Positions 23,897 through 27,764 of a DNA stretch of 64,000 nucleotides are shown piece after piece (position 1 is the first letter of the stretch; each line of letters opens with the position of its first letter). Under the pieces are notes generated by a model. That model ran no database searches. It was not told where the DNA came from and saw only the letters and a program-made list of their open reading frames with translations. The stretch lies in the NCBI RefSeq assembly GCF_016865425.1, contig NZ_AP023355.1, positions 4,648,198 through 4,712,197 on the forward strand. Reading direction: 5' to 3'. The translations under genes and the position numbers were made by a program. This DNA comes from Actinocatenispora thailandica. GTDB taxonomy: Bacteria > Actinomycetota > Actinomycetes > Mycobacteriales > Micromonosporaceae.

Positions 23897-24091
23897 ATGG
23901 TCGGGCTCGTGGACGAGTACCGATACTGCTCGACGTGCGACGCGGAGCGCCCGTTCGAACGGCCCGAGTGCCTGGACGGGCACGGCGCCGACTGCCCGGA
24001 GCGCTGCTGCGTGCACTGTGGCGAAGCGATCCTGGTCGATCCCCCGCTGGCCCCCGCTCGGAGCACACCGCGCCGCGTCCTGGCCGCCTGA
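23897..24091 (+). CDS. Small cysteine-rich (zinc-ribbon-like) protein
   Basis: 64 residues. CSTCDAERPFERPEC and CPERCCVHCGEAILVDPP provide two CxxC pairs and extra cysteines, suggesting a small zinc ribbon. Proline/arginine-rich tail. It ends just before a strong hairpin terminator. Function unknown; coding status is supported by the ordered Cys spacing. Confidence 0.6.
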   Translation: MVGLVDEYRYCSTCDAERPFERPECLDGHGADCPERCCVHCGEAILVDPPLAPARSTPRRVLAA

Positions 24092-24104
24092 GACCACGCA
24101 CGAG

Positions 24105-24135
24105 AAAGGGGCCCGCCAGGACGGCGAGCCCCTTT
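24105..24135. terminator. Terminator hairpin shared by the small Cys-rich gene and ctaF
   Basis: AAAGGGGC (24105-24112) pairs with GCCCCTTT (24128-24135), with an inner CGCC/GGCG extension. The A/T-flanked arms give U-rich ends in both directions. It terminates the plus-strand gene ending at 24091 and, through the structured element, the minus-strand ctaF transcript. Confidence 0.75.
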
Positions 24136-24151
24136 ACCCACTTCTCCCCGG

Positions 24152-24274
24152 CCCCGAGGGGACGTGAGCAAGGCGAGCCTGCTTCGTTCGCTGGCAAGCC
24201 GAGCCGAGGCGCCGTGTGCCGAGGCGGCACCAAGCCTCGGATCGGCGCAGTCCAGCGGGCGAATCAGGCCGCCG
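24152..24274 (-). ncRNA. Structured repeated element, copy 1 (3' UTR of ctaF)
   Basis: 123 bp closely matching a second copy at 27096-27216. It sits 17 nt after the ctaF stop and before the terminator. Paired segments: GCTTCG/CGAATC (24181-24186 with 24260-24265, one mismatch), CGCTGG/CCAGCG (24189-24194 with 24252-24257), GCCGA/TCGGC, CCGAGGC/GCCTCGG (24204-24210 with 24234-24240) and apical GTGCCG/CGGCAC. Differences from copy 2 preserve pairing. The strand is assigned from the ctaF transcript. Could be a 3' UTR RNA structure or a mobile palindromic repeat. Confidence 0.6.
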
Positions 24275-24291
24275 CAGCGCCCCCAACGGAC

Positions 24292-24720
24292 CTACTCGTG
24301 GCCATGCACCTTGCGGGTGCCCGTGTAGTACTCGAAGACGAAACCGCAGACCGCGACGATCACCGCGATCAGCCCGGCGACCAGCAGCCAGACCTGCCAG
24401 AACACCACGCCGAGGCCGGCGATCGCGGCGGCCAGCGCCATCCCGAACGGCCAGTAGCTGCCGGGGCTGAAGAAGCCGATCTCGCCGGCCCCGTCGGCGA
24501 TCTCGGCGTCGTCCCGGTCCTCGGGGCGGGGCTCCATCCGGCGGGCGATGAACGCGAAGTACGCCCCGCACATCAGCAGCAGCAGGGTGGACAGGATCAG
24601 CGCGACGACGCCGATGACCTCGACGTGCCCGTCGGCGGCGCGGGTCCAGAAGCCGTAGACGACGGCCGCGATCGCCAGGAACAGCGCGACGAGATTGAAG
24701 ATGCGGGATTCGGTCTTCAT
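24292..24720 (-). CDS. ctaF: Cytochrome c oxidase subunit IV, actinobacterial type
   Basis: 142 residues, four membrane helices in two pairs (about 5-30, 35-58, 92-113, 115-137), separated by an acidic loop with GEIGFFSPGSYWPFGMALA, the CtaF hallmark. It is a small structural subunit of the actinobacterial aa3 oxidase. It follows ctaC after 13 bp. Its 3' UTR contains a structured repeat and then a terminator. Confidence 0.95.
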   Translation of the reverse strand: MKTESRIFNLVALFLAIAAVVYGFWTRAADGHVEVIGVVALILSTLLLLMCGAYFAFIARRMEPRPEDRDDAEIADGAGEIGFFSPGSYWPFGMALAAAIAGLGVVFWQVWLLVAGLIAVIVAVCGFVFEYYTGTRKVHGHE

Positions 24721-24733
24721 CTGGAGGTTCGCC

Positions 24734-25669
24734 TCAGCTCGCGGTACGAGAGGTGCGGTCGGTGTTGAAGGGGTGCGTGGTCGTCGCGTACGGCGCCTGC
24801 CCGATGTCGCGCAGCGCGGCCGGCGTCGACATCCCCTTCTGCTTGTCCTGCAGGAACTTCTGGTAGTCGGTCCAGCTGACCGCGCGCATCTCGAAGTTCA
24901 TCTGCGAGTGGTAGGTGCCGCACAGCTCGGCGCAGCGGCCGACGTAGGCGCCTTCCTTCTCGATCGTCACCTCGAACTTGTTCGTCGTCCCGCCCGGGAA
25001 CACGTCCCGCTTGAACAGCAGCTCCGGCACCCAGAACGAGTGGATGACGTCCTGGGAGTCCTCGACGAACTGGACCTTCTTGTGCGTCGGCACCACCAGC
25101 ACCGGGATGTAGCTGCTGGTCCCGGTCGTCTCGACCGGCTGACCGTTGCTGCCCTTGGCGTCCGGGTACTGGAACTGCCAGTTCCACTTGAACGCCACCA
25201 CGTGCACGGTGGCGTCGGGGTGCTTGGAGGTCTTGTTGACGTACGACTCGGTGATCGCCGTGTAGTAGAACAGCACCGCGATCACGAAGAACGGCACGAT
25301 CGAGTAGACCAGCTCGATCGGCAGGTTGTACCGGGTCTGCACAGGCAACTGCTCGCCACGCTTGCGGTAGCGCACCACGCACCAGAAGATCAGCCCCCAC
25401 ACCAGCACGCCGACGCACAGCGCGGCGATCGTGGAGCCGATCCACATGTTGTACATCTTGTGCGCCTGCGGCGTGATGCCGCCGTGCGGCCAGCCGAACG
25501 CGAAGGCGTCCTTGGCCGAGCAGCCGGCGAGCGACGTGAGCAGCGCGGCGCCGCCGAACGCGACGGCGGCGACCCGCCGGGCGGACCCGCGTCGCCGCGG
25601 GGTGGCCGCGGCCGCGGCGGGACGGGGCGCGTGGCTGGCGCGAGCGGTGTCTGTTGGACCTGCGACCAC
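24734..25669 (-). CDS. ctaC: Cytochrome c oxidase subunit II
   Basis: 311 residues from GTG 25669 (AGGAG close upstream; a GTG at 25756 would add 29 residues, so the start is uncertain). A basic N-terminus with RR leads to a lipoprotein signal, LLTSLAGC. Two membrane helices follow, then the cupredoxin domain, with FKWNWQFQYP and the CuA site CAELCGTYHSQM. It accepts electrons from QcrC. ctaD, usually near ctaC in Actinobacteria, is not in this window. Confidence 0.93.
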   Translation of the reverse strand: MVAGPTDTARASHAPRPAAAAATPRRRGSARRVAAVAFGGAALLTSLAGCSAKDAFAFGWPHGGITPQAHKMYNMWIGSTIAALCVGVLVWGLIFWCVVRYRKRGEQLPVQTRYNLPIELVYSIVPFFVIAVLFYYTAITESYVNKTSKHPDATVHVVAFKWNWQFQYPDAKGSNGQPVETTGTSSYIPVLVVPTHKKVQFVEDSQDVIHSFWVPELLFKRDVFPGGTTNKFEVTIEKEGAYVGRCAELCGTYHSQMNFEMRAVSWTDYQKFLQDKQKGMSTPAALRDIGQAPYATTTHPFNTDRTSRTAS

Positions 25670-25925
25670 CGGCTCCTGCCTTCCTGTGCGGTTGACGATC
25701 CGCGGTCGCCTGCGAGGGGCGACTGCCGCGGAACAGGGTGCGGCGACGGCTGTCACCGACGGTCGCAGATTACTCGACCTGCCCCGGCCGCACGCCGATG
25801 GGGTGGCAAGGTCCGCCCTCGGTGGTTGGCGTCGGAACGGGACAAGCCGAGCCGTGACCGCCTGTTGCGAAGCCTTTCACACTCCGGCCGCCGGGTGGGC
25901 CGTTCGACGTGGTTCACCGGGGCAC

Positions 25926-25960
25926 GAAACGGGTCCCCACCGGCGGTGCGGACCCGTTTC
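25926..25960 (-). terminator. Terminator hairpin after the PfkB-type kinase
   Basis: GAAACGGGTCC (25926-25936) pairs perfectly with GGACCCGTTTC (25950-25960), 16 bp beyond the kinase stop. The 11-bp stem ends in A-T pairs. Confidence 0.8.
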
Positions 25961-25975
25961 GCCGGGCGCGCCGGC

Positions 25976-26953
25976 TCAGCCGAGCAGCTTGGCCCGGACC
26001 TCCTTGGCGCAGACCTCGCCGTACGACTCGGCCAGCCGCGCGACGAACCGCTCCGGCTCGACCGTGTACTCCTGGGTACCGACGGTCTCCAGGACGAGGG
26101 TGGCGAGCATGCTGCCGATCTGGGCGGCGCGCTCCAGCGTCAGCCCCCAGGACAGGCCGGCGAAGAAGCCGGCGCGGAAGCCGTCGCCGACACCGGTCGG
26201 GTCGTGCGCCGCGATCTCCTTGGCGACCGGGACGTGCACCGGCTCCATGCCGCGGCCGGTGATCCGGGCACCGTTCTTGCCCAGCGTGGTGACCCGCACC
26301 TTGACCAGGTCGAGAATCTCCTCGTCGGACAGGCCGGTCTTCTGCTCCAGCAGGTTCTTCTCGTAGTCGTTGGTGAGCAGGTAGTCGGCGCCCGCGATCA
26401 GGCTGCGCGCGTCCTCGCCGGACATCCGGGCCAGTTGCTGGGACGGGTCGGCGGCGAACGGGATGCCCCGCTGCCGGCACTCGTCGGAGTGCCGCAGCAT
26501 CGCCGCCGGGTCGTTCGCGCCGACCAGCACCAGGTCGAGGCCGGCGGCGCGGTCGGCGACCGGCTGCAGTTCGATGTTTCGCGCCTCGGCCATCGCCCCC
26601 GCGTAGAACGACGCGATCTGGCACATGTCCTCGTCCGTGGTGCAGACGAACCGCGCGGTGTGGGCGGTCTCCGAGACGTGCACCGAGTCGCAGTCGACGC
26701 CGTGCCGGGTCAGCCACCCGCGGTAGTCCGTGAAGTCGACGCCCACCGCCCCGACCAGCAGCGGGCTCAGACCGAGCTGGGCCATCCCGAACGCGATGTT
26801 GGCGGCCACTCCGCCGCGGCGTACCTCCAGCTCGTCCACCAGAAACGACAGCGACACCTGGTGCAGCTGGTCGGGCAGCAGCTGCTCGGCGAACCGACCC
26901 GGGAAGTGCATCAGATGGTCGGTGGCGATCGAACCAGTGACGGCGATCTTCAT
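25976..26953 (-). CDS. PfkB family carbohydrate kinase (adenosine kinase-like)
   Basis: 325 residues from ATG 26951-26953 (GGAAGG upstream). KIAVTGSIATDHLMHFPGRF opens the ribokinase fold; RRGGVAANIAFGMAQLGL is PfkB signature 1 and HDPTGVGDGFRAGFFAGL is signature 2 with the catalytic Asp. The closest mycobacterial relative by position is Rv2202c, an adenosine kinase, between ctaC and the HesB-like gene. Substrate assignment rests on that synteny. Confidence 0.88.
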   Translation of the reverse strand: MKIAVTGSIATDHLMHFPGRFAEQLLPDQLHQVSLSFLVDELEVRRGGVAANIAFGMAQLGLSPLLVGAVGVDFTDYRGWLTRHGVDCDSVHVSETAHTARFVCTTDEDMCQIASFYAGAMAEARNIELQPVADRAAGLDLVLVGANDPAAMLRHSDECRQRGIPFAADPSQQLARMSGEDARSLIAGADYLLTNDYEKNLLEQKTGLSDEEILDLVKVRVTTLGKNGARITGRGMEPVHVPVAKEIAAHDPTGVGDGFRAGFFAGLSWGLTLERAAQIGSMLATLVLETVGTQEYTVEPERFVARLAESYGEVCAKEVRAKLLG

Positions 26954-27043
26954 GGTGGAACCTTCCGGACGGACGTGGTTAACCAACAGTGCGCCGCGCC
27001 AGCGTACCGGCGTCACCCGGAATTCACCGACCACCCAGAACAC

Positions 27044-27078
27044 AACGAGGGCCACCCTCCACACGGGTAGCCCTCGTT
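27044..27078 (-). terminator. Terminator hairpin of the erpA transcript
   Basis: AACGAGGGC (27044-27052) pairs perfectly with GCCCTCGTT (27070-27078), with inner ACCC/GGGT pairs. Minus-strand RNA continues GTTGTGTT, a weak U-tract. It lies beyond the structured element in the erpA 3' UTR. Confidence 0.8.
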
Positions 27079-27095
27079 CATTCCGTTATGACGTC

Positions 27096-27216
27096 CCCCG
27101 AGGGGACGTGAGCGAGGCGAGCCTCAGGCGTTCGCTGGCAAGCCGAGGCGAAGCGCCGTGTGCGAACGCACACAAGCCTCGAATCGGCGCAGTCCAGCGG
27201 GCGCCTGAGGCCGCCG
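27096..27216 (-). ncRNA. Structured repeated element, copy 2 (3' UTR of erpA)
   Basis: 121 bp starting 5 nt after the erpA stop. Helices: ACGTCCCC/GGGGACGT (27091-27098 with 27102-27109), CAGGCG/CGCCTG (27125-27130 with 27202-27207), CGCTGG/CCAGCG (27133-27138 with 27194-27199), GAGGC/GCCTC (27145-27149 with 27176-27180) and apical GTGTGC/GCACAC (27158-27163 with 27168-27173). All are perfect, and several use different base pairs from copy 1, which suggests selection on the fold. Confidence 0.6.
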
Positions 27217-27221
27217 GAGGA

Positions 27222-27578
27222 TCAGTGGAAGCTGTCGCCGCAGGCGCAGGAACCGCTCGCGTTCGGGTTGTCGATGGTGAAGCCCTGCCGGTCGATGCGG
27301 TCGGCGAAGTCGATCGTCGCGCCACTGAGGTACGGCACGCTCATCCGGTCGACCACGACCTCGACACCGCCGAAGTCCTTCACCACGTCACCGTCGAGCG
27401 AACGCTCGTCGAAGAACAGCTGGTACCGCAGGCCGGAGCAGCCGCCGGGCTGGACCGCGACCCGCAGCCGCAGGTCGTCGCGGCCTTCCTGGTCGAGCAG
27501 CGCCTTGACCTTCTCCGCCGCGACGTCGGTGAGGATGATCCCATCGGTGGACGACTCGGTGGTCTGCTGAACAGTCAC
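27222..27578 (-). CDS. erpA: Iron-sulfur cluster insertion protein (A-type carrier)
   Basis: 118 residues. VQPGGCSGLRYQLFFDE and the terminal SCACGDSF contain the three conserved cysteines (C, then CxC) of A-type carriers that hand Fe-S clusters to apo-proteins. Position matches M. tuberculosis Rv2204c. It is presumably needed for the Fe-S enzymes of the respiratory chain and elsewhere. Confidence 0.95.
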   Translation of the reverse strand: MTVQQTTESSTDGIILTDVAAEKVKALLDQEGRDDLRLRVAVQPGGCSGLRYQLFFDERSLDGDVVKDFGGVEVVVDRMSVPYLSGATIDFADRIDRQGFTIDNPNASGSCACGDSFH

Positions 27579-27764
27579 GTGGTGCTCCCTGCGCCGGTTT
27601 GTGGTATCTGGTCTGCCTCATGGCGTGGAACAACGGCGCCCTAGGCATGCATTCCCATACTCGCACAGGATCGGCGACCCGCCACCGGCTCGGCGGTGAC
27701 CTGCCCCGCACGGCGCCGGATCGGCAGGACGCCCGTTTTCACCCGGATCGCGCCGGCTGTCGGG

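Follow-up and report, generated by a model that had tools for sequence, protein, structure and literature searches.

The two repeated units in the window (the whole stretch of 64,000 nucleotides from Actinocatenispora thailandica analyzed here) are members of a family of long hairpins that, with slightly better than even confidence, represents a new family of palindromic repeats dispersed in extragenic space, similar in kind to REP and bcr1 elements. Dispersed extragenic hairpin repeats are a known kind of element; new are the family itself, its size, its conserved loops, the asymmetry between its strands, and its abutment on stop codons. An initial annotation had proposed a structured RNA. 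The structure and the further copies that it expected are borne out. A functional RNA gene or 3'-UTR element is less well supported, as this is a dispersed repeat that is variable at orthologous sites, has MITE-like relatives, and in Actinocatenispora seems to keep the fold better on the antisense strand. The family, scattered among soil actinomycetes, points to a repeat with a mobile or regulatory nature and not to an isolated RNA gene.

Each copy is on the + strand and has a gene of the - strand to its right. Element limits are those of a full-element covariance model built from nine copies (R1), and core limits are those of a core model (R2). The features are as follows:
24105..24135, - strand: terminator-like hairpin AAAGGGGC..GCCCCTTT past copy 1 as viewed from ctaF, recognized by reading and absent from the list of the terminator scan
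24152..24164, + strand: short 5' segment CCCCGAGGGGACG ahead of copy 1, within the repeated unit; same letters in copy 2
24161..24277, + strand: copy 1, full long hairpin element; core 24177-24269; R1 112.4 bits, R2 63.6 bits; fold z -5.2
24292..24720, - strand: ctaF-like gene (cytochrome c oxidase subunit IV-like), neighbor of copy 1, named by reading, without an NCBIfam match; stop codon 14 nt from the element
27044..27078, - strand: terminator-like hairpin AACGAGGGC..GCCCTCGTT past copy 2 as viewed from erpA, recognized by reading
27090..27109, + strand: short 5' hairpin GACGTCCCCC-GA-GGGGACGT ahead of copy 2, recognized by reading
27105..27219, + strand: copy 2, full long hairpin element; core 27121-27211; R1 129.7 bits, R2 76.3 bits; fold z -6.5
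27222..27578, - strand: erpA (iron-sulfur cluster insertion protein), neighbor of copy 2; NCBIfam NF010147, 117.4 bits with a cutoff of 117; stop codon 2 nt from the element

The two copies of ~122 bp described in the initial annotation are confirmed in place; they are similar throughout and fold far better than shuffled sequences. BLAST aligns copy 1 with copy 2 over query bases 3 to 125 of 127 with 86% identity, and the ungapped repeats D1 and D6 show identities of 90% and 89%. A short CCCCGAGGGG segment stands ahead of both copies, and forms similar to the 5' hairpin of copy 2 precede loci L057, L033, L076, L077, and L035. Each copy forms one long hairpin, whichever strand is folded. The + strands reach -79.6 kcal/mol (copy 1) and -82.7 kcal/mol (copy 2) at the z scores listed above, with none of 200 dinucleotide shuffles folding as well, and the - strands are almost equal at -76.7 and -79.6 kcal/mol (z of -4.6 and -6.5). 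With the core model, a convincing third copy does not emerge in the window; once the opposite strands of both copies are set aside, the next best places have E values of 0.095 or worse. No tRNA or tmRNA is found within the window, and no sigma-70-like promoter site is found in 23900-27600. Three examples of covariation between the two copies had been put forward, two of which hold in the register of the family. The foot helix reads GCTTCG/CGAATC (one mismatch) in copy 1 versus CAGGCG/CGCCTG in copy 2, and the apical helix reads GTGCCG/CGGCAC versus GTGTGC/GCACAC. The inner helix fails, as the family alignment gives CGAAGC/GCCTCG with an A.C mismatch for copy 2 instead of the out-of-register GAGGC/GCCTC. 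Two copies by themselves would be weak evidence for covariation.

The covariance-model search suggested by the initial annotation yields further copies. BLAST and R1 together show nine strong copies in the genome of the window (G000), and 41 strong copies at an E value of ≤1e-9 are found in four Actinocatenispora genomes (9, 5, 24, and 3 copies; the others are G012, the richest, G050, and G070); this difference in copy number counts in favor of a dispersed repeat. In an R1 scan of 121 genomes of Micromonosporaceae, where NCBI too places the genus, scores above 75 bits are confined to Actinocatenispora, and the best score outside is 67.3. The core reaches further. R2 matches occur in 36 of 354 Micromonosporaceae genomes and 10 of 44 genera at an E value of ≤1e-5, and in 20 of 394 genomes sampled from the class and 13 of 138 genera at an E value of ≤1e-6, the own genus being included in both cases; these E values are rough, as the model was calibrated short. 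Copy numbers in the R2 scans are at least those found, because 12 (family) and 10 (class) candidates were scored per genome. The element is one long hairpin of ~115 nt with small conserved internal loops near the tip, and a recognizable 5' tail or mini-hairpin accompanies at least 26 of the 41 Actinocatenispora copies. Among 14 sequences compared from other families, CAAGG of the bulge region is kept in 12 and CGCAAG after the apical stem is kept in 11, letters that R2 itself favors, and the helices vary. Two classes are distinguished besides the Actinocatenispora copies: class I hairpins, which like these copies abut stop codons and show no CTAG-type inverted ends, and class II, MITE-like elements ending in CTAGGG-type inverted repeats. 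Class I hairpins also occur in tandem or clustered at L230 (G004), with four matches at 196-bp steps, and at L237 to L240 (G066). Partial tandem duplications at the right end of the element, beside a full copy, are seen in L033/L011 (G000:C1:953490-953673) and L037.

Family alignments show the claimed covariation to be strong and wide. In a structure-free MAFFT alignment of the 41 copies (A8), both sides are changed in 22 of 39 pairs. The covariation score is 0.322 compared to 0.134 for shuffled alignments, it drops to at most 0.069 when the partners are slid, and none of 500 shuffles reaches any of five measures. Pairing is kept in 95.1% of 1,580 cells versus a shuffled mean of 83.6%, a figure that is flattered because the structure was derived from these same sequences. 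When the core is aligned across 14 sequences, which represent 10 genomes and 7 genera and include one row with an erroneous 3' end, double changes are seen in 23 of 35 pairs, and the score is 0.493 compared to 0.156 after shuffling. On FastTree trees, compensating double events (Watson-Crick to Watson-Crick) outnumber breaking ones (Watson-Crick to A.C or mismatch) by 75 to 35 in Actinocatenispora, 138 to 89 in class I, and 59 to 23 in class II; these counts are rough because the trees use the same short, possibly recombining sequences. Between orthologous copies, changes in place are double and kept in 7 cases and broken in 9 in class I, and 8 and 8 in Actinocatenispora (overlapping pairs of copies). 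The in-place compensation suggests an upkeep after insertion that a purely selfish reading does not need.

Such pairing could also arise without selection on the fold, in a MITE or palindrome that is strand-neutral and in which templated correction (quasipalindrome repair) keeps the two arms matched. Class II, whose well-matched arms differ in sequence inside one genome, would be consistent with this, as would the near equality of broken and compensated pairs between orthologs. The double events in the 41 copies are scattered (61 single-pair runs compared to 7 two-pair runs), contrary to such correction. Nor would templated correction be expected to spare the unpaired loops, which are conserved, or a tandem U.G pair; below the CTGGC stem, the two positions of this pair are U.G in 24 and 37 of 41 copies. 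It also does not predict the excess of G.U over A.C described below, and this origin of the matched arms is judged distinctly unlikely.

Cells of the + strand show G.U:A.C ratios of 116:12 in Actinocatenispora, 142:59 in class I, and 192:38 in class II, in rows that are not independent, and 33 of the 38 A.C cells of class II belong to one outermost pair. Counted by parsimony as single changes, the ratios are 32:10, 53:37, and 21:4, respectively, so that the asymmetry is weak in class I. The + strand fold therefore appears to be under more constraint than that of the - strand. In Actinocatenispora, this better-kept strand runs antisense to the neighboring gene, a point against a simple mRNA 3'-UTR role: the transcript of the gene itself would carry the less well paired version, still stably folded. 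An RNA route may still exist through transcription of the + strand or through read-through that starts in a convergent gene. The folded strand may act as RNA or as single-stranded DNA, and the sequence fits both.

The position of the copies is far from random. In 31 of the 41 Actinocatenispora copies, a gene-like frame, judged by codon-position GC rather than by annotation, ends within 25 nt to the right (at 2 to 17 nt), and its stop belongs to a gene on the opposite strand; to the left, this is the case for 1 of 41. The same test shifted outward by 60 to 330 nt gives 6 of 410 and 19 of 400 (1.5 to 4.8%). The initial annotation had named a known mobile repeat in random positions as the case against its proposal, a case that does not apply to such a distribution. 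For class I, 55 rows of other genera were taken from the R2 family-scan list, some of them belonging to tandem arrays. A frame end within 25 nt is seen to the right of the hairpin in 33 rows, to its left in 14, on at least one side in 40, and on both sides in 7. In class II, the TAG of an end coincides exactly with a stop codon in 14 of 32 rows (right 10, left 7, both 3), with no one-sided orientation. By reading, the genes at all nine sites of G000 appear to run with replication, assuming a terminus opposite dnaA at 6.95 Mb, so that gene direction and replication direction are inseparable there. A TNA triplet adjoins the right end in 15 of 41 copies; a left motif is recognized in 26 copies, and in 12 of these a TNA triplet adjoins the left end. 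Apart from this TNA tendency, no constant tetranucleotide, such as the GTAG or CGTC type of tag of REPs, is seen by eye at the listed ends. No clean target-site duplication is found at the ends of the Actinocatenispora copies, and no terminal inverted repeats are seen there.

The fixed orientation toward the gene and the short distance to its stop fit a functional structured RNA, that is, a 3'-UTR or antisense element that regulates or stabilizes the adjacent mRNA and was copied to several genes. The compensating changes in place at orthologous sites are in line with it, as are the terminator-like hairpins seen by reading beyond the element at erpA and ctaF and the relatives that immediately follow an rpsD-like gene in each of two other genera. 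Such a function is nevertheless considered unlikely. The better-kept strand is the one antisense to the gene, the MITE-like relatives lack the one-sided orientation, and the ten adjacent genes checked with NCBIfam show no common functional theme. The ROK glucokinase, ErpA, GroEL, and GlyS pass the curated cutoff; a response regulator, PrfA (given as a fragment), and a P450 remain below it; and three genes are unmatched. Genes named by reading of the C terminus include the rpsD-like genes in two different genera, whose stops are directly followed by class I hairpins (L062 of G038 and L069 of G111), and an rpsI-like gene followed by a hairpin (L295 of G522).

When the nine sites of G000 are located in G012, G050, and G070 through the sequence that flanks the element, they give 35 orthologous cases, sorted by eye and with groL of G070 missing: 21 full hairpins, 8 stubs, and 6 sites without an element. 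A persistent presence at the same genes across species, as for a conserved cis-regulatory RNA, is not found, the hairpin being missing or reduced in 14 of the 35 cases, although the erpA copy, a point in favor of an RNA function, is present in three of the four Actinocatenispora genomes. In the stubs, the hairpin is deleted and parts of its ends remain; as the stub ends differ, deletion of the hairpin fits better than a clean preinsertion site. In two cases, the prfA site of G012 and the L037 site of G070, the full hairpin stands at the end of the convergent gene instead. Comparison of L038 (G000:C1:65566-65677) with L091 (G070) shows, by eye, a hairpin that looks flipped in place in G000, with the tail motif GGGTCGCTGCGCCG left at the stop of the other gene.

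A reading as bidirectional transcription terminators or mRNA 3'-end protectors that evolved at gene ends is favored by the 7 of 55 class I rows with gene ends within 25 nt left and right. At erpA, ctaF, and groL, a separate terminator-like hairpin is recognized by reading beyond the element. The terminator scan supports part of one of these, a smaller stem at 27059-27047 with a T-rich tail within the erpA hairpin; its total of 3 compared to 1.7 in shuffles is not above chance. Genomes without the element likewise have, by reading, such a hairpin shortly after the stop of erpA (G012) and groL (G050). In G050, it lies a few nucleotides past the groL stop; in G000 and G012, the element stands between stop and hairpin, and the hairpin of G000 matches that of G050. 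Neither the loops nor the strand asymmetry is necessary for termination, and an origin as terminators or protectors is very improbable.

The dispersed repeat as the preferred reading draws further on class II. G050 contains a MITE-like element of ~168 bp with CTAGGGTCTGTTTCG-type ends (L159 to L163 and L165 to L172). The ends give 38 matches, 26 of which form 13 pairs of exact ends 153 to 154 bp apart and 12 of which are unpaired, and the 13 copies fetched have nearly identical cores. Exact end pairs and nearly identical cores make recent movement of an element carrying a related core probable in G050. An autonomous insertion sequence with these ends is not found at L307 and L308, 2 of the 12 unpaired ends, where no second end occurs within 3 mismatches and no transposase is recognized among the long frames. 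The Y1 (RAYT-type) transposase family PF01797, the one driver family searched for in the four Actinocatenispora genomes, is found in two, neither of them G000 or G012, and no transposase or recombinase can be tied to the element. Y1/RAYT is rejected as the driver since it is not found in G012, the genome richest in copies. A phage or plasmid origin is likewise set aside, as copy 1 has no blastn match among 50,697 records of phages and 72,556 of plasmids; in viral contigs, a pattern of 21 fixed bases finds no match, and one of 18 fixed bases finds two, both without a hairpin by eye.

The family differs from the described systems that it resembles. ERIC and other MITE-like repeats are imperfect palindromes of ~100 to 150 bp in intergenic places. 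The present family shares size, imperfect palindrome, and intergenic location with them, but the Actinocatenispora element lacks visible terminal inverted repeats, and class II is a relative rather than the same element. An integron attC site is an imperfect hairpin directly after the stop of a gene, in one orientation and with its structure kept more than its sequence. The present hairpins resemble attC in their place after the stop, their single orientation, and a structure better kept than the sequence, but no attC core sites are recognized by eye, and they occur mostly as single copies beside ordinary genes; the attC reading is set aside on inspection by eye, as are stop-codon read-through and a K-turn. 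Compensatory changes are known for bcr1. The repeats bcr1 to bcr18 of the Bacillus cereus group are intergenic, some of them are MITE-like and located in UTRs, and bcr10 and bcr18 have a conserved secondary structure and are proposed RNA elements (PMC3446304). The likeness to these intergenic, partly MITE-like, structured repeats is one of description; they belong to another phylum, and one-orientation stop abutment does not appear in the available part of PMC3446304. REP and GTAG-tagged REP are likewise dispersed palindromes in extragenic space near stop codons, but they are described as 20 to 40 bp in length, compared to ~115 nt with conserved internal loops here, and their Y1 transposase is not found in G000 or G012. 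According to the accessible portion of PMC3733652, REP termini can supply the stop codon, and GTAG REP ends often do, which the class II stop at the TAG end recalls. In the accessible portion of PMC12306157, ribosome stalling is reported for E. coli REPs that lie within 15 nt of a stop. Rfam release 15 gives no match in the window, and an E-value search of five loci gives eight matches, each below the gathering score, in agreement with the initial annotation, which had recognized no described family. Such a repeat family is not found for Micromonosporaceae in searches of the open-license PMC literature, and the accessible text of the stem-loop survey PMC2267715 contains no occurrence of "Streptomyces," "actinobacteri," "stop codon," or "compensatory."

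For the dispersed repeat, a mechanism can be outlined from sequence patterns in which mobility, the strand as substrate, and the target are all inferred. The folded strand would serve as substrate or signal of the spreading process, as proposed for REP, and this would be the likeliest reason for the kept pairing. Insertion would occur near T-N-A triplets, expected largely at stop codons in GC-rich genomes, and inserts just past the stop would be tolerated; the two together would explain the positions. Copies sit directly past stop codons and are lost through deletion of the hairpin, which leaves stubs. The fixed orientation toward the gene is not accounted for by a symmetric target. Against the repeat also stand the high stability of the - strand, the weak asymmetry of class I, the lack of a clean target-site duplication, and the lack of a driver tied to the element. 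A wider proposal is tentative: a strand-specific module of AA bulge, GGCG-type stem, GAG/CGACAA-type loop, GCC/AA loop, and apical stem, common to the stop-abutting repeats and the MITE-like carriers across Actinomycetes, could be the recognized single-stranded DNA or RNA of a system for dispersal or regulation that is directed at gene ends and leaves the genes intact.

The family invites a hunt for its driver enzyme, and its possible effect on the mRNAs of erpA, prfA, groL, glyS, and other important genes becomes a question that can be asked. It provides a large, naturally varied data set for the choice between a folded DNA strand and an RNA and for the reason why such hairpins gather at stop codons.
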